Shown here: in pieces, positions 1 to 28,662 of the stretch
How positions within the stretch are numbered: position 1 is the stretch's first letter
Layout of the letters: every line of letters begins with the position of its first letter
Origin: Candidatus Termititenax sp.
GTDB taxonomy: Bacteria; Margulisbacteria; Riflemargulisbacteria; GWF2-35-9; DYQY01
Length of the DNA: 31,251 nucleotides
Direction: 5' to 3'
Assembly: GCA_020719045.1 (NCBI GenBank)
Contig: DYQY01000012.1
Location: 1-31,251, forward strand
Made by a program: the position numbers and the translations under genes
The notes under the pieces: generated by a model
What the model was told of the DNA's origin: nothing
The model's input: only the letters and a program-made list of their open reading frames with translations
Database searches by the model: none

Positions 1-3000
1 CATCTAATGTTAATGGAGTTGTAGATTTACAAGAAGGTAGACATGTTGGTGAAGGTAATGTTGGAATAACCTGGCCAAACACAGATAATTTAACATTAAG
101 AGGACAAGGGGCTGAATTATCAGTGTTAGATGCTGAGCAAGTAACAAGGCATATATTGGTTACACAGGCTGTTGGCTTGAGGCTTGAGGCTATAGCCTTA
201 ATAAACGGTCGTGTAAGTAACGATACTGTAGCCTATAACGGTGGAGCTATTTGGATGAATGTAAGTGCAAGACTGACGATGGATAGTTGTATTGTTAGTG
301 GGAATACAGGATACAACGGTGGTGCTTTTTATACTTTTTATAACGGTATAATAATTATTAATAATTCAGAGATACATAATAATATTGCTGCAAACACAGG
401 AGGTGCATTTTATAATGCACAAGCGTCCTTAACAAATTGCCGTTTATATTATAACAGCGCTTTTTCTGGTGGTGGTTTTGCTTATGGAACAAACATTTTA
501 ACAAACAGCAGTGTATATAAAAACAGTGCCATTACTGGTGGTGCTTTTACTCATGGCACAAATACCTTAATAAATGTGCTTGCCTATAATAATAGTGCTA
601 CAAATGGTTCAATTTTTAGAAGAGGAGATAGTAAGTTAGTTAATTGTACAATAGTATCCAACAGCGGAGATACCTATTATGATGATAGTGCAAGCGCTGG
701 AACTGATGGTGAATTAGAAGCATATAACACTATATTTGTTGGAGATTTCAACGGTGGGGGAGATTCAAATTTCAATACATGTACAGTAAATAACAGCATT
801 TTTACCGATACTGCGCTTCCAGAACAATATTGGATAGCTAATCAGGTAATAACTGGGGCAGTTACTGCCGATTTATTTATGAATTATGAGTTAGGAGATT
901 ATAGTTTAAGGTACGATAGTAAGGCAGTTAATTTTGGTTCTATTAATCTATGGAATGCTAATTCTAATAACATAACTACAGATATTCTTGGTGGTGCAAG
1001 AATGGTAGATGTATCAATAGATGCTGGTTGTTATGAGTTTGTTGGACTAACGGTAATAACACCATCATTTATGATTTTATACGATTTAGATAGTATTAAT
1101 AATAAGTATGCTAATGATAAAAAGGTTGGAGTGCAAATCGATGCAGACAGTAGAGCAGGTTACTGGCTATTAACAGAAGAAGCAGTAACTCCATCAGTAA
1201 CAAATAACCTATGGTCAACAGTGAGACCAGCAACTTTTATCTTTAAGAACACAGTTAATGAACTTAAGACAGTTTATCTATGGACAAAGAATTGGTATGG
1301 TCAGATAGTTAATAGCGTTGTTGTAGCTACAATTAATTATGATACAACAATGCCTGCAATATCATCAGTTCAACTCTTAAACTCTTCAACTCATCAACTA
1401 GGCAATGGTGAAGCTATCAACAGAGTAGGGACATATAATGTAACTTTCAATATGGGTGAAGAATTAGTGCTTACTCCAGAGATAACGTTAGTTTACAACT
1501 CTTCACTTTTCACTGTTCACCCATCACTAATAAGAGTTAACGGCTCCACATATACAAGTGAGATATATGTTAGCGCTAACTGGTTGCCAGTGTCTTATAA
1601 TTGGAGTTTAAGTGCAATAGATAATGCGGGGAATGTAGTTAATGATACTCAAAGTACTTTAGGGTTTACACTAAAGACTACAGCGAAGATTTCCTCTAAG
1701 AATTATTTTACAATCCAACATGCTTTAAATAGTGCCAATATAGGCGAGATTGTTGATGTTCAGGCAGGAACTCATGTTGGAGCAGGCAATGTTGGAATAA
1801 CTTGGCCAAATGTAAACAATATAACTTTACGCGGAGTAAGTTCAGTAGATACCATTCTTGATGCAGAACATGTGACTAGACATATTTTAGTTACTCAGTC
1901 TTTAGTTTTTAACCTTTCGTCTTTAACCTTAATTAATGGAAAGGTTGGAAGAGGTTCGGCATATGGAGAACCAACTGAAAATGGAGGATGCATTTATATA
2001 GGAAGTGTTTCATATGTAACTATTAATTTATTAGATGTTATTTTGAGTGGTAACACTGCTTATACAGGTGGTGGGTTTTATAAAGCTAACGATAGTTATC
2101 GTGTGAGTTTTATTAGGTCCAGTATGTTTGGTCATTCCGTTGAGAATCACCCCGCTGGGGGAGGTTCAATTGTTTATAATGGCAATGTTTATTTGAAAGA
2201 TTCTTTAGTTCAGAATAATGGTTTTAGTCGGGGCGTAGGTGGTTTTGCTTATACTGCTAGCTTTGAAGCCGATAATACTGTTTTTGTTAATAATAGATTC
2301 CAATACGGTTTTATGAACACAGTTGGGGTTGTTAGTATGAACAATTGTTTAATAAGTGGTAATTATGCTACCGATGGAGCAGTTTTTAGGGGACCATCAT
2401 CTGGTAGTGTAAAAAATTCAATCATTATTAATAACACAGCTTCTTTTAGAGGGGGTGTAAGGTGCGACTATTGGTCAAATCAGATTATGAGATTTATTAA
2501 TGTACTAATGAAAGGTAATCGCTCTCTCCAAGCTTCTGGTAGGTCTGGAGCTGTTTTTAGTTTAGGTAATAATATACTTGTTAACTGTACGCTTATTGAT
2601 AACTTGCCTTATGCAGTAGATTCATACTTTTATGATAATGGCGACTATTCTATGAGAGGTTTAGAAATATATAACTCGATTATTGTTGGAAAATTTGCTG
2701 GTGATTTAGACCAATATTATAATGTTGTTACAGCAAATAATTCTATTTTCACTGATACAAATTTACCAGAAGCAACTTGGCATGCAGAGAATATAATAAC
2801 TGGAGCAGTAACAGCTGATTTATTCATGGATTATGCAAATAGTGATTATCGTCTCAAGTATAATAGTAAAGCGGTAAACTTTGGTTCAAACGCATTATGG
2901 AATGCAAATTCAAATAATATTACCACAGACTATACCTCTAGCCCTCGAATCATCGATACCTCTATTGATGCTGGCTGTTATGAGTTCCAGAAGCTTACAA

Positions 3001-6000
3001 CACTTAAACCAGAGTTCTATTTATATGATTTAAGAACAGGTTCAAGACGTTATATGACACAACAAGAAGTTGGTGTCAGTATTAGTGGCGATAACATCGC
3101 TACCCATTGGTACCTGTCCGAGTCGTCTGCAACCCCCGCTGTGGGCGACCTGGGCTGGGCGGTAGGACGTCCAGTCGCTTATAGATTTGTAAGTAAAGTA
3201 AACGAGAAGAAGAATGTTTATATGTGGACAAAAGATGAGTTTAGTAGAGTTATCAAGGTTAGTTCAGATGTTTCCTTTGAAGGAGTAACCTTAGACAGCG
3301 TAGCGCCATTTATTGCGATTATTACTTTTGATAAGAAACCTTATATAAACTCAAATGCAACAGTAAATGTGACATTTAGTTATAATGAGGCACTTGCAAT
3401 TACTCCAAGTATCGTGCTTATAAAATATGGCCAATCAATTGTAAACATTACTCTCAATAATTTAGTTAAAGTTGATGAGTATTCTTATTCAACTCAAATA
3501 ATTGTAACTGCTGGTGTAACAGATGGCGTATTCGTTATTTCAAGTACTGCAACAGATAATGCTGGATTTGTTGGAACTGGAAATGCTGATACAGCTGTAA
3601 TTGTTATCGATAGAGTAGCAAATATGCCAAAAAACTTTGCAATCTATGACTTAGATGATGGGGCAAGCATTGAGACTGGTGATAGAGTAGTTGGAGTTAG
3701 ATATGATTATGACTCCGACCATGTAGCATGGATAATAGGTGAAGGATTAACTTATGCAAATAAACCACAAAGTAACAGTGAATTGTGGAGTGTTAGAAGA
3801 CCAAGAGAGTATACAATTAAGGATTATGCTTTTGGTGATAAGACAGTTTATCTTTGGGTTAAAGATAATGCTGGTAATGTTTCAGATATTCCAGTAGTTG
3901 ATGGAATAGAGTATAAACCAAAAGGTTTTACAACTAGAGATTACCTCGTGGTTGATATTCCTAATACATATATGCCTGCTGGCGAATTTACAATAACAGT
4001 TAATTTTGATGATGCTGGAGTTGTAACTCCTGAGGTTTGGATGATCCTTTCAAATAATACCATGTTGTCTTTAAATTTCTTTGCTGTTACGTATAGCAGT
4101 GAGCTTGGAACAAGCTATCTGGCAACAATGAATATCCCAACAGATAATAGCTATGATGGTCAGAGTAAGTTTGAACTTAGAGCAACTAAATCTAATGGCA
4201 TTGAACTTGAGTATATTGGCATTGCATATATTGGCATCGGCGGGGATAGGGATTTCGTGATTGATACTTATATTGAGAATCCAATTAGCTTAGACTTAAA
4301 GGATAAGGACGAGTTAAGTTTAGAGGCTTCATATACAAATGACTTTATAGTTAATGTGTATATGAAATATAACGTAGATCATTCTGAATGGTTGATAGGT
4401 GAGGAATTAGTGTCGCAACCATTAGCATCTGACGTTCGTTGGATAAATGTTCAGCCAGCGGAATATATGTTTTCAGATATGATCAGAGGCAGAAAAATAA
4501 TCTATGTTTGGGCAAAAGACAAAGCAGGAAATATTTCTGAAGAGCCAGCAACGAAGACAATTCTTTATATGCCAGAAAGACATGATAAAGCCTATGTTGG
4601 TGTTTATCCAGAAAGAATCTATATGTCCAATGGTACATTCAATGTAACAGTGAATGTGCTTGAGGGTGATTCGTCAACGCCAGATGTTTGGTTATATCTA
4701 GATGCACTTGATACAAGAATTACTTTAAATATTATTAGCAAAACAGTTGATTTGGCTGATGGTGCATTCTTTAACACACAACTGTTTATTAATTCTGCAA
4801 ATAACTATGATGGAAATGCTCACTTTGAGGTATTGGTAACTAATAGTAGTGGTACTGTAATTAAATTCTTGAGTTACAACTATGCTGTAATGGACGGATA
4901 TCCAGATGTGGTTATCGATACTTTGATTACTACATCAAGGTTTGAAATGTTTGATGCTGATACAAATAGAACTGATTATACAAATGATTTAGCTGTAAGT
5001 CTCAGGATTAGTAATGATTCTGATGTTATCAGTTGGTTGATAGGTGAGACTGCAATAGCTAAGCCAACCTTGAGTGATGCTCGTTGGCAAGATGCAGTTC
5101 CTGCCTTATATGTATTTAAGAGTGTTATAGAAGCAGAGAATACAGTATATTTATGGGTAAAGGATAGGGCTGATAATATTTCATTAACCTCTGCATCAAA
5201 ATCAATAGTCTATGATATTACTGCTCCAGCTGTTTCATTCTATGAACTATGGAATAGACAGATTAGCAGCAATTATTTAGTTACATTAGAAGTTAATGAA
5301 AATATCGATAATATGCCAAGGCTGATCTACTCAATTAATGGTGGTGTTACATCAGGAGTAGTTGAATTAAATAAGATTAATAGTAATGTTTGGACTGGAG
5401 TAATTGAAGCTTCTTCATATTTTATTAATACAATTAACTGGGCTGTTGTTGTTACAGATAATGCTGGTAACGAGCAGACTCAATTCTTCAGAAGATACGA
5501 TGCTTCCGACAGATGGTATGATAGTTCAGGAATTTTAAGAATTGATACTATTAATGACTATATGGATGCTGGTCAGCATAGAGTAAGTTTGAATGTTAGC
5601 GTTGATAAAGTATTAATAGATACTCCTAATATTATGATTAGACATTTATCATCTAACACATTAATCGTGTTAACTGTTGATAGTGTAAGTATAAATAATT
5701 TTGGAGTATTTTATGGTTTCACAGTGAATGTTCCTACCAGTGGATTGTTGGATGGGACTATTAATTTTGAGATAACAGTTACTTCTGATAGTGATTATGT
5801 TTTAAGAGTTACTTCTGATGATAGTATCTATTTTGATAGTAGCATTTCTGTGCCACGAATAACGTTCTATGATAGAGTCACGGGAATTGAGCGTTTTGTG
5901 AAAGGTATTCATCCATATGTAGAGATTAGCTCTGATTTAGATGTTATTGGGTGGCTAATAGCTGAACAAGCAGCAACACCATCGATATTATCACCTGCGT

Positions 6001-9000
6001 GGAAAACAGATAAGCCAACAACTTATTTGTTAGAAAATGATAGGGAAGAAGATAAAACAATATATCTGTGGGTAAAAGATAGAGCTGGTAACTTAATAGG
6101 GGCAACATCAAGTGTTGTATACGATGCGTCAGTTCCTTCCTTGTCATCAATTCAACTCATCAACTCATCAACCCTTCTACCTATAAACAGTGTCGAAGAC
6201 ACTTACTATTTAAAGGTTGGAACATATAATGTGACTTATAACTTCAATGAAGAAATGATTATTACTCCTACTGTAACTATTGGAAACGGAATAGCCTCCC
6301 TCATTGAGGGAGGTGTCTTGACCAAAGGGCAAGACGGAGGGAGTTATTATCTACAATATGTTATCACTTATGGAACAACAGAGGGTACATATAATGTTTA
6401 CTATAGCGCAACAGACAACGCGGCAAACGCTTCAACCCTTCAACTCTTCAACTCTGCCTTAGTAGTTGATTTACAAAAGCCAACTGTTAACTTGGAGATA
6501 CTAGATGTAGATACTCTCAGTGCTCTGTATACAAATAGTGTAAACGTTAGATTGAGTATAAATGTTACAGAGCCTGTTCAGTTCTATGTCACAGAAAACC
6601 TTGGATTTGAGTATTCAACTTCTCACTTCTCACTTTTCACTTCTCACGAACCAATAACTTACGATTTCTCTACGTTGGTTGCAGAGTCTAAGTCGTTAAA
6701 GTTATTGGTTATGGATAGAGCTGGAAATATTGGAAGCAGGAATTCAAGTATCTTGTTTGATAATGTTGCACCAACAGCAATGATAGAAATTGTTAGTACA
6801 GGTGATAATCTTGTTGAGGGTGAATATATTGTTACGGTTCATGTTAGAGAAAATGGAAGTGGATTATCTGGTACTCCTAACATCGTATTTGTTCCAAGCA
6901 GAACATCATCCATTCCACTCACTCTTCACGCTTCACCATTCACTGGAATTTATACCAGCACCCTGGATATAAATTCCTTTACTGGCGACGGATTAGCTTC
7001 ATTTGTTATTTCAGCAGTTGATAATGCTGGTAATTCTTCTGATAGGTTAAGCTGCTTAGTTTACTTTAATGGTGAGATTACATCTAATGTGTATATAAGT
7101 ACAAATATAAAATTGCCAGGACTAGAGGTGTTCGATATTGACACCTTAAGTACAAGAAACGTAAATGACCAAACAGTCGGAGTTAGGATAACAAATGATA
7201 GCAGGGCTACTGGCTGGTTAATTAAAGAAGATTCCAGGAATCCAGAAGCCATTGATCCACTTTGGCAGAATGTAAGAATCAATGTATTTAACTTGAGAAC
7301 GAAGATTAATGGTGTTAGGTCATTATATTTATGGTTAAAAGATGATGAAGGTAGGGTTGTAACGTCACCAGTAGTTGCAATGTTTAACTTTGATAATGTG
7401 AATCCTTCAATAATAAGTGCAGAAGTAACTAGATTTAGTGGCGAGGTAGTAAGTGCAATAAATGGATCTTCATATATAAAGGTAGGAACATATAATATTA
7501 CAATTGATTTTAATGAAGAGTTGCTATCTACACCAACAGTCTGGATTGAACATATAACTGAGTTTGAGGTTTATGATTTAGTTGTTACTAGGGAATCAAA
7601 TTCCAGATACTCAGCAGGCTTTTTTATATCGTCTAGTACAATAGAAGGAACATACAATATTTATTTTAGTGCCACCGACAATGCAGGTAACACTGTTCAC
7701 GGTTCACTGTTCACTTCTCACCTAATAGTGGATACAACAAAACCGACTGTGAATTTAGAGATATTAGATCTGTATACATTAAGCAATAGCTATACAAATA
7801 GTAGAAATGTAGCCCTAAGCATAAATGTAGTGGAAGCTAATATGTTTGGGTACTATGTAACAGAGAACTTAGGGTTTGAGTATTTAGCTTCTCACTTCTC
7901 ACTTCTCACTTCTCACGAACCAATAACTTATAACTTTTCTACGACAGAAGCAGAACATAAGAGCTTAAAGTTATTAGTTATTGATTTAGCTGGAAATATT
8001 AGCTCAACAAATGCAAGTATCATATTAGATGATGTTATTCCAACTGCGACAGTAGTGTTCTCAGTTTCTCCTGATAACGTGGATGTCGGTGCGTACAGAT
8101 TAACCTTAAATGTAACAGGCATATTTAGTGGACTAGCTTCAACGCCTAGCTTATTGTTTGTTCCAAACAACAAACCATCAATCCCATTAACTCTTCAACT
8201 TTTAAACTCATCAACTTATCAATCAACACTGGATATAGATTCCTATACAGGAGACGGAGCTGGTTATTTTAGATTATTCGCTACAGATAATGCGTTGAAC
8301 GTAGCAAATAGTATTAATTGTGTGGTTTCTTATAGTGGGGTAACTACTTTTGGTATTATCATTAATACAACGGTTAAGACCCCTAGTTTCAATGCATATG
8401 ATTTTGAGTTGGGTGAATTATCAGAATTCACTAATGATAATATTTTGAAAGTAACTATCTCTGCTGATGAACAAGCTTATGCCTGGATGATTACAGAGGT
8501 ATACTCTTCAGCTCCATCAGCATCTAGCACACTTTGGTTAGATAGTAGACCAGTACAGTATAGATTATTAAGCAATCTAAATGAAATGAAGACCTTGTAC
8601 TTATGGATAAAGAATGCGAACGGATACATTAACAGTGTTCCAGCGATAGTAACGGTTAACTATGATAGCGTTAACCCATTGTTAGTTAGTAAAGTGATAA
8701 CAAGAGTGACTGGCGATGAAGTGAATGTAATCGATAACCACACATATTTGAGAGCAAGTACTTATAATGTTACATTTAACTTTAGTGAGTTTATTCAAAT
8801 TACTCCAGAGGTAAGGATTGTAGGTAGCGCAGAAGTCTTTGAACTTGGCCAAACACTGTCATTAGTTAGAGTTAGTTCTGGAGTTTATACTACTGAATAC
8901 GTTGTAACCGCTGGAATGATGGAATCTACATACAATATATATTATACCGTAACCGATAATGCTGGGAATTTAACCTATAGACAATTATTCCCAGCTAATG

Positions 9001-11960
9001 GATTAGTTATAGATTTAACAGTTAACAATCCAGCGGTTATGGCATATGACAAAGATAATAATAATGATTTAAGGACATATGATTTTATTGTAGGTTTAAA
9101 TGTAACTAATGATGCAGATGTTGTTGCTTGGTTGGTTAGTGAAACAGATAAGCATGCGTTTGTTCCATCTTCAAATGATCCATTGTGGTCATCAGTGAAG
9201 CCTTATGAACATAGATTTAAGAATATTCAATCTGGTCTTAGAACAATTCATGTTTGGGTTAAGGATAAAGCAGGAAACATAAGTAGTGTTGATGCTTATG
9301 CATTTATTATGTTTGATTCATCAGAGTTAGAAGCAAAAAGCTATGCAAATATTTATGTTGATCAAGGTACAGTTGTTCTTCCTGGTAGGATGGATCTAAC
9401 CTTGAATGTTATTGAGCAATTAAGGGTAACTCCAAGTTTGGAACTAAGATTAGAAAATGGTAACAAGGTTCCAGTAAGCTTGAATTTTGTTTCAACCAGC
9501 GATAAAAACGGTATTTACTATAGTGCGGTAATTGATATTCCAGAAATAGCTAGTTGGTCCGGTGAGGCTTACTTTGAATTGGTTGCTACTAGAAATAACT
9601 TTACAAGATTTATTGCAACTTCTAATAGAACAATTGTTGGATTAATTGGAGGTCAGCCTAAAATCAATATTGCTATTCCATTATATAGAATAGTTTCTGT
9701 GAACCAGAACTTAACAGCGCTAGAGCTAGGAGCTAAAGATCAGGTTGTTATTAGTTTTAATTTTGGAAGTGATTCTTCTGTAGTATCGATAGAGAAAATA
9801 AGAGTTGTTCTTAGTGGAAATATTTATGATCACGAGATTTCTGAAATATACTTTGCTTATCCAAAATATGGTGGATATAAAGAACTTACTGAAAGGTCTA
9901 AGATAAAGGATAAAGAAGTAATCTTGAATTTCTATAGTGCTGATAAGTATTTTAGAGGAACAAAGGATATTGTTCTAATTATGAGTATTTCAGAGAAAGC
10001 TGTTATCGATTCTAGCTTCCAAATTGTTATACAAACAAGTGATGTTGTTCTTGAGCAAGGACAGGTAATTAGTAGAAATAATTTACCATTTGTTGGTAAT
10101 CAGACAGTGATAATTAAGAAAACAAATAGAGTATTGGTTCAGCCTGTTGCATTGCCAACTTTGGATATAAGACTTGGTCAAAAAGATGTTGTGTTGTTTG
10201 ATATTACCTTGCATGTAAATAATGATGGTAGCTCTTACTTATCTGGATTATCAGTTAGAAAGTCTGCAGATATTCCAGATAGTGCTCTTTTTAACCTAAG
10301 GTTATTAAGAAAGAATGAGATAGACACTCCACATAGCCTAACAAGAGACCAGCTGATGGAAACTGGACTTAACTTTGTTAATGGATACATGCATGTTAAC
10401 CTTAATCCATTCTACAAGATTACTGATGTAATGGCGTTGTTCTATGTTATCGGCGATATTGAATATGTTTCTGGTGGTGCTCGAGAGTTCAATATTGGTA
10501 TTACATCAACAAGCTCTTTCCGTTTAGATAGTAAGAGTGCTATGTTGCCAGCAAATATTGATCAATTAACCAATACATTTAATGTAGGTGCTTATATTCC
10601 AGTTGTTGTTGCTAGTGCAAATAAAGCAATTGATGATGCTTTATTTGCAGTTGTAGAAAACAGGAAGGTAATAGAACTTAATGTTAAGACTGATCATGAT
10701 GCTACAACTATGGATATGGTTAATGTGAATGTATCGCTTGTTGGAAATAATGGTCTTTCAATCGGTTTGATGGATAGTGATAATAATGTATTAGCTAACA
10801 AGACAATGGTGAATGGTACAAATAACTTAATATTAGCAACTCCATTAGTAGTTACTGAGCAAATACAAAAACTTTATGTTTATATCAAAGTAGATAGTTA
10901 TTTAGAGGAAGGTTCTGTGAGGTTAGTCGTAACAGGTGATAGCTTAAGAGTGTCTTCAGATAAGATGATTATTTCTAATTATGACACTGGCACCATTAAT
11001 ATTAAGTCTTCTAGCCATCCTCGTAAGCTAAGATTATATTCTAGTAAGGATTATGTTAATAATTTTATTAGTACTAACCTTGTGTTAACGGTTGCAACAG
11101 AAGATATTGGTAATATTAATGTGCTTTATAAAATACAAGAAACACAAACTGGTAGAATAGTTGTTTCTTGGTCAGCTGTAAAAAATGTTGTAACAGTTAC
11201 AGTCAATCAATCAGTTATTCAAGTTGAGCTTGATAGCTTACCGTTAACTCATAATGTAAATTATGATTTTGCAATAAAGGCTGTTAAAGCAAGTTTAGAA
11301 AGTGATGTAACAACATGGTCTGTTAGGACAGATTTTACTAAGCCAAGATTTGTCAAAAACAAGATAGAAGTTTCTCAGATTAGCTATGAAAATCTATTGA
11401 AACATATCTTATATCTAGGTGAAGCAACTGATGACGTATCATCCATAGATGAAATTGAGATTTATAACAGAACAGGTAATGAGCCTAAATGGCAGCTGAT
11501 AAAGGTTGTTTCTGCAGATAAGCAAAGAGTTGAGGTGTCTGATCTTCAGCAATTAAGAACATATTTTTATAAAGCGATAGCTAAGAATAATGCTGGCTTA
11601 AGCTCAGTTGAAATAACTTCGGATGCTGGTATTTCAACAGGTTTTGATGGAACTGTATTATCTAGACTATCTAATTATCCAAATCCATTTAAGTCTGCTG
11701 AAACAGATACAACTATTTATTATTACTTGAACCAAAATATGGACATTACCATTAAGATATACAATGTTTATGGCAAGAAAGTATATGAGATAAATTGTTT
11801 CGCAGGGGAAAAAGGTGGAACATCAGGAGCAAATGAGATTAAATGGTCTGGTGTTGATCAATCAGGAAATAAGCTACCAATGGGTAGTTATCCAATGGTA
11901 GTTTATGAAACTGATACTAAACAAATACTAGAACAGAGAGTTATTGGAGTAATCCATTAG
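1..11960 (+). CDS. Giant secreted beta-helix / Ig-repeat protein with FlgD-like C-terminus (5' partial)
   Basis: The frame is open from the window edge (first full codon at 3), so the start lies upstream; the visible part is about 3985 residues. Order: beta-helix module A (3-1045) with GGAF/GGGF and N-x-S repeats resembling Chlamydia Pmp repeats; one Ig-like unit (1076-1690); beta-helix module B (1700-2990); then tandem units starting near 3019, 3643, 4291, 4941, 5864, 6492, 7122, 7754, 8388 and 9038, each with a W-L-x-x-E core, a YLWVKDxAGN core and usually a GTYNVTF..E...TP domain. From about 9640 come less repetitive beta domains, then fibronectin-like domains (about 11050-11640). The last 100 residues hold NYPNPF and a FlgD-like Ig fold, common at the C-termini of secreted giant proteins. 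There is no C-terminal membrane segment or LPxTG. It is probably an extracellular adhesin or surface polymer. No frameshift is seen across 12 kb. The role is inferred from architecture only. Confidence 0.88.
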   Translation, partial: SNVNGVVDLQEGRHVGEGNVGITWPNTDNLTLRGQGAELSVLDAEQVTRHILVTQAVGLRLEAIALINGRVSNDTVAYNGGAIWMNVSARLTMDSCIVSGNTGYNGGAFYTFYNGIIIINNSEIHNNIAANTGGAFYNAQASLTNCRLYYNSAFSGGGFAYGTNILTNSSVYKNSAITGGAFTHGTNTLINVLAYNNSATNGSIFRRGDSKLVNCTIVSNSGDTYYDDSASAGTDGELEAYNTIFVGDFNGGGDSNFNTCTVNNSIFTDTALPEQYWIANQVITGAVTADLFMNYELGDYSLRYDSKAVNFGSINLWNANSNNITTDILGGARMVDVSIDAGCYEFVGLTVITPSFMILYDLDSINNKYANDKKVGVQIDADSRAGYWLLTEEAVTPSVTNNLWSTVRPATFIFKNTVNELKTVYLWTKNWYGQIVNSVVVATINYDTTMPAISSVQLLNSSTHQLGNGEAINRVGTYNVTFNMGEELVLTPEITLVYNSSLFTVHPSLIRVNGSTYTSEIYVSANWLPVSYNWSLSAIDNAGNVVNDTQSTLGFTLKTTAKISSKNYFTIQHALNSANIGEIVDVQAGTHVGAGNVGITWPNVNNITLRGVSSVDTILDAEHVTRHILVTQSLVFNLSSLTLINGKVGRGSAYGEPTENGGCIYIGSVSYVTINLLDVILSGNTAYTGGGFYKANDSYRVSFIRSSMFGHSVENHPAGGGSIVYNGNVYLKDSLVQNNGFSRGVGGFAYTASFEADNTVFVNNRFQYGFMNTVGVVSMNNCLISGNYATDGAVFRGPSSGSVKNSIIINNTASFRGGVRCDYWSNQIMRFINVLMKGNRSLQASGRSGAVFSLGNNILVNCTLIDNLPYAVDSYFYDNGDYSMRGLEIYNSIIVGKFAGDLDQYYNVVTANNSIFTDTNLPEATWHAENIITGAVTADLFMDYANSDYRLKYNSKAVNFGSNALWNANSNNITTDYTSSPRIIDTSIDAGCYEFQKLTTLKPEFYLYDLRTGSRRYMTQQEVGVSISGDNIATHWYLSESSATPAVGDLGWAVGRPVAYRFVSKVNEKKNVYMWTKDEFSRVIKVSSDVSFEGVTLDSVAPFIAIITFDKKPYINSNATVNVTFSYNEALAITPSIVLIKYGQSIVNITLNNLVKVDEYSYSTQIIVTAGVTDGVFVISSTATDNAGFVGTGNADTAVIVIDRVANMPKNFAIYDLDDGASIETGDRVVGVRYDYDSDHVAWIIGEGLTYANKPQSNSELWSVRRPREYTIKDYAFGDKTVYLWVKDNAGNVSDIPVVDGIEYKPKGFTTRDYLVVDIPNTYMPAGEFTITVNFDDAGVVTPEVWMILSNNTMLSLNFFAVTYSSELGTSYLATMNIPTDNSYDGQSKFELRATKSNGIELEYIGIAYIGIGGDRDFVIDTYIENPISLDLKDKDELSLEASYTNDFIVNVYMKYNVDHSEWLIGEELVSQPLASDVRWINVQPAEYMFSDMIRGRKIIYVWAKDKAGNISEEPATKTILYMPERHDKAYVGVYPERIYMSNGTFNVTVNVLEGDSSTPDVWLYLDALDTRITLNIISKTVDLADGAFFNTQLFINSANNYDGNAHFEVLVTNSSGTVIKFLSYNYAVMDGYPDVVIDTLITTSRFEMFDADTNRTDYTNDLAVSLRISNDSDVISWLIGETAIAKPTLSDARWQDAVPALYVFKSVIEAENTVYLWVKDRADNISLTSASKSIVYDITAPAVSFYELWNRQISSNYLVTLEVNENIDNMPRLIYSINGGVTSGVVELNKINSNVWTGVIEASSYFINTINWAVVVTDNAGNEQTQFFRRYDASDRWYDSSGILRIDTINDYMDAGQHRVSLNVSVDKVLIDTPNIMIRHLSSNTLIVLTVDSVSINNFGVFYGFTVNVPTSGLLDGTINFEITVTSDSDYVLRVTSDDSIYFDSSISVPRITFYDRVTGIERFVKGIHPYVEISSDLDVIGWLIAEQAATPSILSPAWKTDKPTTYLLENDREEDKTIYLWVKDRAGNLIGATSSVVYDASVPSLSSIQLINSSTLLPINSVEDTYYLKVGTYNVTYNFNEEMIITPTVTIGNGIASLIEGGVLTKGQDGGSYYLQYVITYGTTEGTYNVYYSATDNAANASTLQLFNSALVVDLQKPTVNLEILDVDTLSALYTNSVNVRLSINVTEPVQFYVTENLGFEYSTSHFSLFTSHEPITYDFSTLVAESKSLKLLVMDRAGNIGSRNSSILFDNVAPTAMIEIVSTGDNLVEGEYIVTVHVRENGSGLSGTPNIVFVPSRTSSIPLTLHASPFTGIYTSTLDINSFTGDGLASFVISAVDNAGNSSDRLSCLVYFNGEITSNVYISTNIKLPGLEVFDIDTLSTRNVNDQTVGVRITNDSRATGWLIKEDSRNPEAIDPLWQNVRINVFNLRTKINGVRSLYLWLKDDEGRVVTSPVVAMFNFDNVNPSIISAEVTRFSGEVVSAINGSSYIKVGTYNITIDFNEELLSTPTVWIEHITEFEVYDLVVTRESNSRYSAGFFISSSTIEGTYNIYFSATDNAGNTVHGSLFTSHLIVDTTKPTVNLEILDLYTLSNSYTNSRNVALSINVVEANMFGYYVTENLGFEYLASHFSLLTSHEPITYNFSTTEAEHKSLKLLVIDLAGNISSTNASIILDDVIPTATVVFSVSPDNVDVGAYRLTLNVTGIFSGLASTPSLLFVPNNKPSIPLTLQLLNSSTYQSTLDIDSYTGDGAGYFRLFATDNALNVANSINCVVSYSGVTTFGIIINTTVKTPSFNAYDFELGELSEFTNDNILKVTISADEQAYAWMITEVYSSAPSASSTLWLDSRPVQYRLLSNLNEMKTLYLWIKNANGYINSVPAIVTVNYDSVNPLLVSKVITRVTGDEVNVIDNHTYLRASTYNVTFNFSEFIQITPEVRIVGSAEVFELGQTLSLVRVSSGVYTTEYVVTAGMMESTYNIYYTVTDNAGNLTYRQLFPANGLVIDLTVNNPAVMAYDKDNNNDLRTYDFIVGLNVTNDADVVAWLVSETDKHAFVPSSNDPLWSSVKPYEHRFKNIQSGLRTIHVWVKDKAGNISSVDAYAFIMFDSSELEAKSYANIYVDQGTVVLPGRMDLTLNVIEQLRVTPSLELRLENGNKVPVSLNFVSTSDKNGIYYSAVIDIPEIASWSGEAYFELVATRNNFTRFIATSNRTIVGLIGGQPKINIAIPLYRIVSVNQNLTALELGAKDQVVISFNFGSDSSVVSIEKIRVVLSGNIYDHEISEIYFAYPKYGGYKELTERSKIKDKEVILNFYSADKYFRGTKDIVLIMSISEKAVIDSSFQIVIQTSDVVLEQGQVISRNNLPFVGNQTVIIKKTNRVLVQPVALPTLDIRLGQKDVVLFDITLHVNNDGSSYLSGLSVRKSADIPDSALFNLRLLRKNEIDTPHSLTRDQLMETGLNFVNGYMHVNLNPFYKITDVMALFYVIGDIEYVSGGAREFNIGITSTSSFRLDSKSAMLPANIDQLTNTFNVGAYIPVVVASANKAIDDALFAVVENRKVIELNVKTDHDATTMDMVNVNVSLVGNNGLSIGLMDSDNNVLANKTMVNGTNNLILATPLVVTEQIQKLYVYIKVDSYLEEGSVRLVVTGDSLRVSSDKMIISNYDTGTINIKSSSHPRKLRLYSSKDYVNNFISTNLVLTVATEDIGNINVLYKIQETQTGRIVVSWSAVKNVVTVTVNQSVIQVELDSLPLTHNVNYDFAIKAVKASLESDVTTWSVRTDFTKPRFVKNKIEVSQISYENLLKHILYLGEATDDVSSIDEIEIYNRTGNEPKWQLIKVVSADKQRVEVSDLQQLRTYFYKAIAKNNAGLSSVEITSDAGISTGFDGTVLSRLSNYPNPFKSAETDTTIYYYLNQNMDITIKIYNVYGKKVYEINCFAGEKGGTSGANEIKWSGVDQSGNKLPMGSYPMVVYETDTKQILEQRVIGVIH
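3..1045 (+). repeat. Beta-helix module, copy A
   Basis: This coding module is homologous to copy B at 1700-2990. Both begin with a VGxGNVGITWPN..N.TLRG segment, continue with LDAE.VTRHILVTQ, and end with ITGAVTADLFM, KAVNFGS, LWNANSNNITTD and SIDAGCYEF. The left end is cut by the window. Between the conserved ends are GG-A-F beta-helix rungs that differ between the copies. Confidence 0.85.
1368..1399 (+). repeat. Period-7 repeat a (TTCAACT class)
   Basis: About four heptads of the form CTTCAAC/CTTAAAC are translated as VQLLNSSTHQ at the junction between two Ig-like domains. The DNA period of 7 is out of phase with codons. Confidence 0.7.
1497..1529 (+). repeat. Period-7 repeat b (TTCACTN class)
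   Basis: Four heptads, CTCTTCA CTTTTCA CTGTTCA CCCATCA, are translated as SSLFTVHPSL inside an Ig-like domain. Confidence 0.7.
1700..2990 (+). repeat. Beta-helix module, copy B
   Basis: This is the second copy of the module seen at 3-1045. It is about 250 bases longer than the visible part of copy A because of extra beta-helix rungs. Conserved start and end blocks flank a diverged middle, as expected for an old intragenic duplication under selection on the fold rather than on surface residues. Confidence 0.85.
6150..6179 (+). repeat. Period-7 repeat c (TTCAACT class)
   Basis: Heptads TTCAACT CATCAAC TCATCAA are translated as IQLINSSTLLP. The location, just after the P-x-x-S-S that ends a unit, matches repeat a. 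Confidence 0.7.
6295..6343 (+). repeat. In-frame double-hairpin palindromic element
   Basis: A GC-rich 49-base block contains CCTCCCTCATTGAGGGAGG (9-bp arms, one-base centre, 6295-6313), then GTCTTG and CAAGAC arms (6315-6335), then GGAGGGAG, which can also pair with the first arm. It is translated in frame as part of an Ig-like domain (SLIEGGVLTKGQDGGS). From memory, the arrangement resembles small dispersed double-hairpin repeats (CTCCCT..AGGGAGG, inner hairpin, GACGGAGGGA) found in many bacterial genomes. That similarity is not verified here. Confidence 0.6.
6431..6455 (+). repeat. Period-7 repeat d (TTCAACT class)
   Basis: Three heptads, TTCAACC CTTCAAC TCTTCAA, are translated as TLQLFNSA. 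They sit directly before the conserved L-V-V-D-x-x-K-P-T-V-N-L segment, the same module position as repeat g. Confidence 0.7.
6614..6647 (+). repeat. Period-7 repeat e (TTCTCAC class)
   Basis: Four heptads, CTTCTCA CTTCTCA CTTTTCA CTTCTCA, are translated as TSHFSLFTSHE. They lie at the same module position as repeat h, 1.27 kb downstream. Confidence 0.8.
6911..6945 (+). repeat. Period-7 repeat f (TTCACTN class, degenerate)
   Basis: The heptads are degenerate: CACTCTT CACGCTT CACCATT CACTGG. They are translated as PLTLHASPFTG and lie at the same module position as repeat i, which is of the other class. Confidence 0.6.
7691..7721 (+). repeat. Period-7 repeat g (TTCACTN class)
   Basis: Four heptads, CACTGTT CACGGTT CACTGTT CACTTCT, are translated as TVHGSLFTSH. 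They occupy the module position that repeat d occupies one supra-unit earlier. Confidence 0.75.
7888..7917 (+). repeat. Period-7 repeat h (TTCTCAC class)
   Basis: Four perfect CTTCTCA heptads followed by C are translated as ASHFSLLTSHE. This is the most regular array in the window. Confidence 0.85.
8187..8227 (+). repeat. Period-7 repeat i (TTCAACT class)
   Basis: About five heptads of the form CTTCAAC/TTTAAAC/CATCAAC are translated as PLTLQLLNSSTYQST. This is the longest array in the window. Confidence 0.75.
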
Positions 11961-20182: not shown

Positions 20183-20880
20183 TACATAAGTTTAAGCATA
20201 AGTTTGCATTATTTTTTTTAATCTTTAGTCTTTTGTCTTTCATCTTTCCTTATAATCCAGATGGGATGCCAACAGACTTTAAAACAAACAAGAAACAAGT
20301 AGTTTTAACTTTTGATGATGGTCCATCCTATCTTTATACAGATAAAATATTAGATATTTTGAAGAGTAACAATGTAAAAGCTTCATTTTTTTTGATTGGC
20401 TCGCGTATGATTGAGTATCCAGATTTAGTAAGAAGAATAAGTCGTGAAGGTCATTCGCTCGGCAATCATACTTATAACCATATTAGGCTTGATCAATATG
20501 TTGGTCAGCGGGTAGATGATGAGATAGCTGAGACTAGTCGAGTTTATGAGAATATTCTTGGTTTTGTTCCGAAGTATTTTCGTCCTCCAGGTGGAAGGAT
20601 GAATAAAACAGTTCTTTCAACTGTAGCTAGTCATAAACTTATTCCTATTGGGTGGTCAATTAATGCTAATGATTTTCTTTATCGAGACCAACAGCTAGAT
20701 ACTGAGATGATAGCCAAGAAAGTCTCAGCGGTGATGTCGCATATAGAAAGTCAGCTTAAGCCAGGAGCAGTAATTTTGATGCATAATGGCAACGAGGTTT
20801 CGCTTGCTGTCTTGCCAAAGGTAATCGCCTATATTCATTCAAAAGGTTATACGTTTGTAACTTTGTCACAAGTTATGTAG
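20179..20880 (+). CDS. Membrane-anchored or secreted polysaccharide deacetylase (NodB fold)
   Basis: A metal-dependent carbohydrate esterase (CE4) acting on peptidoglycan or chitin-like polymers outside the membrane. The N-terminus (residues 3-24, basic then hydrophobic) is a signal peptide or membrane anchor. NodB motifs: TFDDGPS (D46, D47), HTYNH (H97, H101), RPPGG and late LMHNG. The GTG start overlaps the queE stop as GTGA, so translation is likely coupled. The length (233 aa) fits a single catalytic domain. The substrate cannot be told from sequence. Confidence 0.88.
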   Translation: MIHKFKHKFALFFLIFSLLSFIFPYNPDGMPTDFKTNKKQVVLTFDDGPSYLYTDKILDILKSNNVKASFFLIGSRMIEYPDLVRRISREGHSLGNHTYNHIRLDQYVGQRVDDEIAETSRVYENILGFVPKYFRPPGGRMNKTVLSTVASHKLIPIGWSINANDFLYRDQQLDTEMIAKKVSAVMSHIESQLKPGAVILMHNGNEVSLAVLPKVIAYIHSKGYTFVTLSQVM

Positions 20881-24644: not shown

Positions 24645-26840
24645 ATGGATAGCGTTGGAGCAGGTTCTGGAGGTGGAATCCACCCAGGGGCACCTATTAT
24701 ATGGCCTACTATTAAGCCAATTACGACTACTACTGAGACAGTGGAAACTGTTGATACAACTACAGAGTCTACTAGTTCAACTTCCTCAAGCTCTTCAAGC
24801 TCTTCTACATCATCTTCTTCAAGTGCTTCCAGTTCTTCTAGTTCATCGTCTGCCTCAAGTTCATCTTCAGCATCATCAGCAAGCTCTGTTATGCGTAGTT
24901 TGTCAGCACAGGATTTGTCTGCACAGCTAGTTACAATGGGGATGGCAGACTCAGCTGATAACCAATCGCTTGCAATGAAGATGTTAGAGCACGGATTGGA
25001 GCTTAGCCAAGAGAACTTTGATCAAGTATTTACTGCACTTCAATCAAAGGGTAATAGTGCATCAGCGCAACAAGCTGTTTTTACGGCGTTAGCCAAGGGT
25101 GTTGCGGGAAATCAAACTGCAGTTAATGCGTTAGATCAGTTTTTTTCTGGTCAAATGAGTTCTGCACAACAAGCGGAAAATTTAAGTCAACAGTTGCAAA
25201 ACGTGGCAAAGAGTTTGGCTAGTTCTCCAAATCTTCTTAATCAGGGATTAACTGCTAGTTTGTCATCTTTGCTGACTGAGTTCGACTCAAGGATTAAGCA
25301 AATGAACAATAAGGATAATTTGCTTAGTAAAGAAAATATAGCATTAACATCAACTCAGAAAGAAAAGTTATCTCAGTTAAATAATATTTCAAGTACACAA
25401 CAAGCAGCTTTAAATAGTGCCTTATCTAAAAACGCACCACTGTCTTCAGCACAGCAAGAAGCACTGCAACAAATGATGAATGGTTCAGTTGGTATGACAG
25501 AAGAAGATGCTAAGGCTATGCAGGACTTATTGCTTTCTAAGAACGTACTTCCAGCTAATATGAAGGATGCACTTGCTCAGGCTCTTCAAAAAGATTCATC
25601 GTTGCCAGTAAATTATAAAGAAACGCTTACTCAGTTATTTAGTTCGCAACCAAAGCTTACATCCGAGCAGAGGCAGGTTTTGCAACAGCTTCAGAGTTCG
25701 CAGAGTATTAATACTGAGCAGAAGATGTTGTTAGGAGACTTAATGAATAATAATTTTAGTAATAAAAATTTAATGGCACTTGATAAAATGGTTGCTGAGG
25801 CACCACTAAAGATGGATCAGAAGCTTTCTTTGAATAACGTGCTTCATTCTTTAGCTTCTCCAAAAGCTGATATTTCTTTTTCGAACGCTTCTAGTTCTTT
25901 TCCAAATTTATCTCAGGAAAGTATGGAGCAATTATCTCAGATGCTTTCTCCGCAATCAGGTTTACCAGCTGAGCAACGAAACTCGCTTATGAGTTTATTA
26001 TCTGGTATGGGATTAATGAATGGAACACATGTGGGAGCGATGCAGCAGCTTATTAGTAGTGGTGGATTGCCACCATCCCAAGCAAGTGTTCTACAAATGC
26101 TTCTTTCTCAACCAGGATTACTTACAGTCGATGATATTTCTGTCTTGCAGACAATTTTAGATAGTGGGCAATTAACCCAGGATCAGCTATTTTCTTTACA
26201 ACAATTATTAATGCAATTGCAGAATAAACCAATGCAGATGCCAATGAATTGGGCTCAGGACTTTAATGCATTGCAGGCGTTAATAAAGGGTATATATAAA
26301 CAATTATCTAATCAACAATTAGATGAGGGTGGCAAGGGTCTGTTGGAAGCGCTTAAGGGGCTTGAAAAGTCGCTTGTTGATAGTGTTACAAATATGACAG
26401 CTCAGGGGATATTAAGTAAGATGTCGAAGTATAATGACCCATCACTTCCAGATAAGTATTATTATTGGATGATTCCAAATCCATTTACAGAGCAAAAAAA
26501 GGATATTGAGATTTTGGTTAAAAGAGACACCTCAAAAGATGGTGCCCCTGTGAATCCGCAGAGAACACAGATAATATTAAAGACAGAGACAGAAACAATG
26601 GGAGATGTCGCTGTTATAGTAGAAATATCTGACAAAGATGTTTGGTATTTGTTTAATACGGATAGTGATGATGCAAGGCAATATATTGCTGCAAATTCTG
26701 CAATATTAAGAGACCAGATGAAGGTTCTGGATTTTAATGTGCAGGGATTTCAATCACAAGTTAAGAAAATTAACATAAATAAGATATTATCGCCAACTTT
26801 AGAGTTAGATAGATTAAGACGAATAAGTGCAGAAGCCTAA
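24645..26840 (+). CDS. fliK: FliK-like flagellar hook-length control protein
   Basis: FliK measures hook length and makes the export gate switch substrates through FlhB. No signal peptide is present, as expected for flagellar export. Residues 39-80 are nearly all serine. Residues 234-526 are sixteen 17-18-residue repeats (L-S/T-x-x-Q-x-x-x-L-x-x-L). The C-terminal part (about 605-715) fits the FliK hook domain: a TETMGDVAVIVEISDKDVWY strand pair and a long helix (DDARQYIAANSAILRDQM) in the order of the LGxVxVxLxxxxGxLxVxF..LRxxL pattern. The downstream stand-alone FlhB C-terminal-like protein supports the call. At 731 aa it is long for a FliK. The match to the hook domain is by eye. Confidence 0.7.
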   Translation: MDSVGAGSGGGIHPGAPIIWPTIKPITTTTETVETVDTTTESTSSTSSSSSSSSTSSSSSASSSSSSSSASSSSSASSASSVMRSLSAQDLSAQLVTMGMADSADNQSLAMKMLEHGLELSQENFDQVFTALQSKGNSASAQQAVFTALAKGVAGNQTAVNALDQFFSGQMSSAQQAENLSQQLQNVAKSLASSPNLLNQGLTASLSSLLTEFDSRIKQMNNKDNLLSKENIALTSTQKEKLSQLNNISSTQQAALNSALSKNAPLSSAQQEALQQMMNGSVGMTEEDAKAMQDLLLSKNVLPANMKDALAQALQKDSSLPVNYKETLTQLFSSQPKLTSEQRQVLQQLQSSQSINTEQKMLLGDLMNNNFSNKNLMALDKMVAEAPLKMDQKLSLNNVLHSLASPKADISFSNASSSFPNLSQESMEQLSQMLSPQSGLPAEQRNSLMSLLSGMGLMNGTHVGAMQQLISSGGLPPSQASVLQMLLSQPGLLTVDDISVLQTILDSGQLTQDQLFSLQQLLMQLQNKPMQMPMNWAQDFNALQALIKGIYKQLSNQQLDEGGKGLLEALKGLEKSLVDSVTNMTAQGILSKMSKYNDPSLPDKYYYWMIPNPFTEQKKDIEILVKRDTSKDGAPVNPQRTQIILKTETETMGDVAVIVEISDKDVWYLFNTDSDDARQYIAANSAILRDQMKVLDFNVQGFQSQVKKININKILSPTLELDRLRRISAEA
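25344..26222 (+). repeat. Sixteen 17-18-residue repeats in the FliK-like protein
   Basis: Successive units begin LTSTQ, ISSTQ, LSSAQ, MTEED, LPANM, LPVNY, LTSEQ, INTEQ, FSNKN, LKMDQ, LSQES, LPAEQ, MNGTH, LPPSQ, LTVDD and LTQDQ. Most are exactly 17 or 18 residues; the first is 14, one is 16, and the tenth carries a linker. Pattern: L-S/T-x-x-Q-x-x-x-L-x-x-L-L/M, likely a helix and a turn per unit. Confidence 0.8.
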
Positions 26841-26869
26841 AAAGTGAGTGGTGAAAAGTGAACAGTGAA
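26841..26869 (-). repeat. Period-7 repeat j, intergenic, reverse orientation
   Basis: Heptads on the plus strand: AAAGTGA GTGGTGA AAAGTGA ACAGTGA. The reverse complement is TCACTGT TCACTTT TCACCAC TCACTTT, the same class as repeats b and g in the giant gene. It fills the gap between the fliK-like stop and the next gene and supplies that gene's GTG start. Confidence 0.75.
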
Positions 26870-27190
26870 GAAAAGAAACCGATAAAAGTAGCAGCAGCAA
26901 TTAAGTATGACCCGGAAAAAAACGTAGCTCCGATTATTTTAGCTAAAGGGAAGGGTAGTATCGCAGAAGAAATCATCAAGATAGCCGAGGAAAATGATGT
27001 TCCTTTGTATCAAGATGCAGCCTTAGCTAAGCTACTTGGCTCGCTTGAGTTAGAAACAGAAATCCCTCCTGAGATGTATTCTGTAGTTGCTGAGGTTTTG
27101 GCTTTTGTTTATAAACTTGAACAAAAAAGAAAAGGTAAAAGTAAATATGATATGGTTAGGAAAGATGATGCAATAAAGGATAAGCGATGA
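26858..27190 (+). CDS. Stand-alone FlhB C-terminal-domain protein (FhlB/YlqH type)
   Basis: 110 residues that align along their length with the cytoplasmic domain of the flagellar export gate protein FlhB downstream of its NPTH cleavage site: AAAIKYDPEKNVAPIILAKG, then AEENDVPLYQDAALAKLL, then IPPEMYSVVAEVLAFVY. There is no membrane part and no NPTH site, so it cannot self-cleave. Such short proteins (YlqH in Bacillus) are known beside FliK-like genes and are thought to act with the export switch. GTG 26858 is the first possible start: the in-frame codon at 26852 is TGA. The start region lies inside a period-7 repeat, and no good ribosome site is visible. It overlaps the next gene by ATGA. 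Confidence 0.88.
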   Translation: MNSEEKKPIKVAAAIKYDPEKNVAPIILAKGKGSIAEEIIKIAEENDVPLYQDAALAKLLGSLELETEIPPEMYSVVAEVLAFVYKLEQKRKGKSKYDMVRKDDAIKDKR

Positions 27191-28594: not shown

Positions 28595-28647
28595 AACACT
28601 AGTCATAGTGTTGCAGTGTTGTTTTGTTGCAAAGTTGTAGTGTTGCA
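28595..28647. promoter_or_regulatory. Palindrome and 10-bp direct repeats, likely operator
   Basis: A perfect palindrome AACACTAGTCATAGTGTT (28595-28612, 7-bp arms) and two exact copies of TAGTGTTGCA at 28606-28615 and 28638-28647, 32 bases apart (about three helical turns). GTGTTGTT and TTGTTGCAA variants lie between. It sits just upstream of a strong promoter and a ribbon-helix-helix gene; RHH proteins commonly bind such short repeats. Confidence 0.5.
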
Positions 28648-28662
28648 ATGTGTTCCTATTGT

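Follow-up and report, generated by a model that had tools for sequence, protein, structure and literature searches.

The closest described counterparts of the repeats reported here are the TAACTGA heptamer direct repeats of marine Beggiatoaceae, some Cyanobacteria and Bacteroidetes (MacGregor 2015, PMC4679880), which are placed in ORFs so that they read free of stops and lie mainly at the edges of proteins or in their variable regions (PMC4679880). Among long simple sequence repeats, a unit length of 7 was found to be the commonest by Mrazek et al. 2007, as that study is related in PMC4679880, and slippage was proposed. The tandem repeats of Borgs (Schoelmerich et al. 2023, PMC9879509) have in-gene units that are perfect and divisible by three, and the Rickettsia palindromic elements (reviewed in PMC10969869) are palindromes of ~150 bp that are inserted whole and lengthen the protein.

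We analyzed a window of 31,251 bp (contig C18:1-31251, G+C 35%) from Candidatus Termititenax sp., whose genome of 1.75 Mb in 31 contigs is 99% complete. Its repeats resemble the TAACTGA repeats (PMC4679880) in having 7-nt units, which as tandem units exceed chance in five of the nine arrays of the window (the four octad arrays fall outside this class), in forming short arrays at many, mostly intergenic loci, in occurring patchily over distant phyla, and in being stop-free in ORFs (9/9 in the window). They differ in having another motif with a degenerate N position, in being clustered within a single giant gene, where they occupy equivalent positions of the domains together with octads and other families, and perhaps in lacking, in their own genome, a clear placement directly before start codons. 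The heptanucleotide repeats of Mrazek et al., as far as that secondhand account describes them, are defined by a length beyond chance, whereas many arrays here are short and imperfect. Like the Borg repeats, those described here appear to be fast-turnover tandem repeats found between genes and in extracellular proteins, but they are imperfect, with a period of 7 or 8. Like the Rickettsia elements, they are dispersed non-coding repeats that end in frame at tolerated places in proteins, but they are direct repeats of 25-45 bp, nearly length-neutral at three of the four recurrent sites described below (sites 2-4), and most copies lack a longer common element such as a palindrome of ~150 bp. The arrays, of ~3-4 imperfect units each, also differ from the long, near-perfect tracts of contingency loci. 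A literature search for the motif strings returned only unrelated papers.

The arrays lie in a giant gene on the plus strand (3..11960), defined by ORF calling, Pfam search and structure modeling. The ORF encodes 3985 aa and is open at its 5' end, the start lying outside the contig. Pfam search revealed Ig-like domains (Big_13, Big_3_2) and a FlgD_ig domain at the C-terminus. A 400-aa repeat block was modeled with a mean pLDDT of 84.7, and the nearest folds were those of giant adhesins, e.g. SiiE; the gene product looks like a giant surface protein of the adhesin type. A second ORF, C11:2-2089 on the minus strand, probably represents the N-terminal portion of this gene, because it leaves its contig just ahead of a repeat-bearing segment and its start resembles that of the homologue in a relative (G001).

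The original prediction had placed nine arrays with a strict period of 7 in this gene. Nine short arrays were indeed found in the ORF, at or a few bases from the predicted positions, but the strict period did not hold: five have a period of 7 (TTCACTN/TTCTCAC) and four, those predicted at 1368, 6150, 6431 and 8187, a period of 8 (TTCAACTC). The peptide FNSSTLQ, ascribed to a heptad motif, is a truncated form of FNSSTLQL, the product of the octad. All nine arrays are on the plus strand. In domain copy 0, an octad array (TTCAACTC) at site 1 (1369..1401) encodes VQLLNSSTHQL, and a heptad array (TTCACTN) inside the domain (1497..1529) encodes NSSLFTVHPSL. Domain copy 1 contains an octad array at site 1 (6150..6177) that encodes IQLINSSTL, another at site 2 (6426..6455) in the linker after TDNAAN, a heptad array (TTCTCAC) at site 3 (6618..6647), and a degenerate heptad array at site 4 (6913..6945; predicted at 6911). 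Domain copy 2 contains a heptad array at site 2 (7690..7723), within a 54-bp tract (7668-7721) that is matched exactly in contig C11, a heptad array (TTCTCAC) at site 3 (7888..7919), and a degenerate octad array at site 4 (8185..8222).

These arrays are real and far beyond chance. At a threshold of 3 units, the gene contains 4 TTCACTN and 4 TTCAACTN arrays. Over 300 synonymous shuffles the means were 0.09 and 0.25, respectively, and the count never exceeded 2; 300 codon shuffles gave no arrays at all. Neither protein sequence nor codon use thus yields them. At a looser threshold, no stretches of period 5, 6 or 9-13 were found in the giant gene, and only periods 7 and 8 were present. Codon choice within the arrays was distinct from that in the rest of the gene for TTC (7/7 vs 23%), CAC (8/9 vs 11%) and AAC (7/7 vs 25%). 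The repeat pattern is at the DNA level, since the periods are not divisible by three, the codons are atypical, and the heptad is scattered between genes. This bears out the original prediction of a DNA-level structure rather than a protein repeat.

Genome-wide counts were made with one genome per species and with crude ORF calls based on length, by which ~92% of the genome of the window (G000) was called coding. TTCACTN forms 29 arrays in this genome, 23 of them outside genes, the highest count among 60 permuted motifs; the heptad is a dispersed, mainly intergenic repeat. Other 7/8-mer families in the genome (AAAAGAT, AAAAGCT, AAACAAAT, AACTAATG and more) are almost all intergenic; the octads were found almost exclusively in the giant gene. 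Within the same genus or order, TTCACTN is present in G001, G003 and G004 and absent from G002, G005 and G006, and it is nearly absent from the remaining phylum sample. Elsewhere it occurs in Prevotella, cyanobacteria, Sulfurovum, acidobacteria and others, so that its occurrence is patchy over many distant phyla. In IMG/VR, at least 120 TTCACTN stretches were found vs 30 and 26 for two control motifs, a contrast that is indicative only, the first control sharing loci with TTCACTT arrays. Three intergenic arrays of G001 could be placed by synteny, and for none of the three was the same array matched in G000; at C17:38745, the G001 stretch is ~21 bp (three units) longer than that of G000, with lengths judged by eye.

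A longer mobile element as carrier of the arrays was rejected, as most intergenic copies share no flanks. An exception is a set of three near-identical heptad arrays in G000 (C3:122584, C24:138855 and C24:149118), which lie in one duplicated segment of ~0.4-0.6 kb (about 430-515 bp or more) that is 93-94% identical and adjoins a resolvase-like ORF fragment. In other phyla, the in-gene arrays lie in unrelated proteins and often outside domain cores, for instance between HATPase and DUF5113 (L218) or near the N-terminus (L325, L210), and in two cases inside a domain (L271, TonB-receptor barrel; L295, TerC). A gene with two period-7 stretches at C17:125660-126880 proved to be a peptidase U32 with a Pfam match of normal length, and the stretches look like chance or low complexity. 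Separately, an AdoCbl-II riboswitch (RF01689) was found in G000 (L099:7327-7396, contig C27). In G001 (L170:6050-6360, contig C52), ~100 bp with two inverted TTCACTN-type arrays, which form a hairpin when folded, separate the conserved flanks of that riboswitch, and Rfam fails to detect the riboswitch there.

All nine arrays of the window gene are read stop-free. By itself this orientation is uninformative, because a reverse array of at least three perfect units gives TGA in every frame and cannot sit in an ORF. Outside genes, the orientation of arrays in the own genome relative to neighboring genes is balanced (14:16 and 7:8); inside ORFs, the ratio of stop-free to stop-giving orientation is 5:1 in the own genome, 25:3 among loci of other phyla (drawn from 119 loci in many phyla), and 34:4 in viral contigs. 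In the other locus sets, arrays outside genes lean toward the stop-giving orientation (e.g. 109:74, 111:61), as expected if such arrays end ORFs. The balance outside genes and the stop-free excess inside ORFs support the earlier view that the arrays are filtered by translation. The heptad arrays of the own genome lie at gene edges and between genes, and a regulatory role deduced from their orientation near gene starts was rejected, 14:16 showing no bias.

The original prediction that the arrays are always in the only stop-free orientation is correct for the window gene, but not as a law. At site 1, both C11 (406-438) and the G001 homologue (L168:1586-1610) contain an in-frame heptad array in the reverse orientation. 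In each, the altered unit is exactly the one whose TGA would be in frame, and the alteration differs between the species (AGTTAAT in C11, CGGGAAT in G001). Reverse arrays inside ORFs are few (1, 1, 3 and 4 across relatives and other locus sets), and the stop unit was altered in both of the two that were examined.

The Ig-like domain copies carry arrays at the same few points, although paralogous copies are not independent and some of the common positions may be inherited. Octads at 1369 and 6150 and reverse heptads in C11 and G001 occupy site 1. At site 2 there is an octad at 6426, a forward heptad at 7690 and in C11, and in G001 either an AAAAGCT-like heptad or a CCCCCTTTAGGGGG palindrome. 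Heptads of two makes lie at site 3, and site 4 holds a heptad at 6913 and an octad at 8185. One equivalent linker is thus occupied by at least four repeat families (octad, TTCACTN, AAAAGCT-like and, in G001, the CCCCCTTTAGGGGG palindrome), and the peptides encoded at equivalent linkers differ, as do the motifs and orientations that give rise to them. Two domain linkers of the G001 giant gene (L168, contig C28; near 25-38 and 715-728 on the minus strand) contain the CCCCCTTTAGGGGG palindrome, which is translated there as PPLGGLGA; the sole further copy in that genome lies on C94. Mapped onto the model of copy 2, the array at site 2 makes up the last strand of a domain and the linker that follows, that at site 3 a short helix with a loop, and that at site 4 edge strands.

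With or without arrays, the linkers at sites 2, 3 and 4 have lengths of 12-13, 14-18 and 22-23 aa, respectively, and the array-free homologues in G004 and G007 have linkers of the same length at these sites, with a tolerance of ~2 residues; length is constant within about 2 aa at three of the four sites. Site 1 is ~12 aa longer in every copy of the genus than in the outgroups G007 and G004, which makes an old insertion there likely. The claim that the repeats invade the gene in frame fits site 1, but at sites 2-4 the arrays replace other sequence and the length is nearly unchanged. In the array-free homologues, conservation is at percentile 0.3 for site 2, 12 for site 3 and 3 for site 4 (p 0.0005 for the mean of the sites, in a test of only three); sites 2 and 4 rank among the least conserved segments, and site 3 is moderately variable. 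As to whether the same protein segments are conserved in homologues with unrelated DNA, the refuting condition set with the original prediction, the outcome is mixed: linker position and length are common to the array-free homologues, but the sequence is not.

We consider it probable that the arrays are heptanucleotide repeats of an ordinary, slippage-prone kind that have passed the filters of translation and of what the protein tolerates, some of them then copied by short-tract gene conversion. Short dispersed hepta- and octanucleotide direct repeats would arise and expand by a DNA process, e.g. strand slippage or template switching, and would gather mostly between genes, the others being purged by reading frame and protein function. 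Coding arrays would persist only without an in-frame stop and where the protein tolerates change. In the giant modular gene, homologous linkers and edge strands under weak constraint are numerous. Different families could be fixed there repeatedly at the same positions with domain length kept, and some arrays may later have been copied between domain copies by short-tract gene conversion. The arrays themselves, we infer, have no function. Against this explanation, equal length is not predicted by slippage alone and needs selection or template switching, and the internal heptads and octads are concentrated in one gene family, beyond what tolerance alone obviously predicts.

A less conventional reading, which we regard as unlikely, is that adhesin linkers are recurrent overwrite sites for several unrelated intergenic repeat families, with length kept like for like through template switching. 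If this were true, non-coding repeats would supply the material from which the joints of a modular surface protein are diversified. More generally, the gene is a compact and testable instance of non-coding repeats turning into coding sequence. The homologous domains serve as replicates, the same few joints having been overwritten by different repeats in either orientation, so that mutational supply (DNA repeats) can be separated from selection (for an open frame, domain length and variable position). For the TAACTGA repeats, stop-free placement in ORFs has been published before; a turnover at homologous linkers in which several 7/8-mer families replace one another at equal length was not found described in open-access text, and may be new.

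Gene conversion, the last step of the favored explanation, is suggested by the 54-bp tract at site 2 of copy 2. It is the only exact match of at least 20 bp between the window gene and the C11 piece, and consists of the site-2 array and 23 bp of left flank, amid domains that share only 59% and 74% DNA identity between these two copies. Copies 1 and 2 likewise share 88% identity at site 3 and 63-66% in its flanks. The 54-bp tract stops exactly at the array edge, and C11 breaks just ahead of a repeat-bearing segment, as would be expected if the arrays were junctions of domain recombination or shuffling, with the repeats as microhomology. The identities on both sides of site 2 show no clear switch of closest relative, however, and we find this alternative improbable.

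Targeted or programmed diversification that puts repeat families specifically into adhesin linkers would account for the four or more families in an equivalent linker, for the two of three CCCCCTTTAGGGGG palindrome copies of G001 that lie in the giant gene, and for the near exclusivity of the octads to it. We give it little credence, since the sites have no common target DNA (by eye), most intergenic copies have no common flank past the array, and the arrays of other phyla lie in unrelated proteins.

Selection at the protein level for beta-prone linkers rich in S/T/N/H/L/F, with the DNA repeats following from protein sequence, codon choice or domain duplication, is already disfavored, and its probability is similarly low. 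The arrays at sites 2 and 4 do lie on predicted edge strands, certain residue patterns, such as PLQLL at site 4 in G001, are also seen where there is no array, and the arrays at 6618 and 7888 are paralogous through domain duplication; yet synonymous shuffles fail to make arrays, the array codons are atypical, equivalent linkers encode differing peptides from differing motifs and orientations, and the heptad is dispersed outside genes. Phase variation, in which a period-7 or period-8 tract that gains or loses a unit would change the reading frame and so turn the surface protein off or on, is very improbable: the units are not multiples of three, the gene resembles one for a giant surface protein, and heptanucleotide tracts switch genes of Haemophilus influenzae (according to PMC8262952 and PMC2651432), but ~3-4 imperfect units were judged too short and degenerate for fast slippage, nine arrays spread over one gene would be an unusual design, and equivalent linkers have the same length in copies and relatives.

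Further repeats were observed elsewhere in the window. A degenerate TTTAATC array (20217-20247) lies near the start of a polysaccharide deacetylase gene, and a degenerate AGTGTTGC array (28607-28651) lies between genes. A 731-aa ORF (24645-26840), for which a Pfam search gave no match, contains a serine-rich 33-bp (11-codon) tandem repeat near its N-terminus (24776-24851). Array search and ORF calls also placed a heptad array of the same family as those in the giant gene at the downstream junction of this ORF (26840..26873, minus strand), in the stop-giving orientation. It begins at the stop of the ORF, overlaps the GTG at 26858 at which the next one is predicted to start, and may supply the start codon of that ORF.
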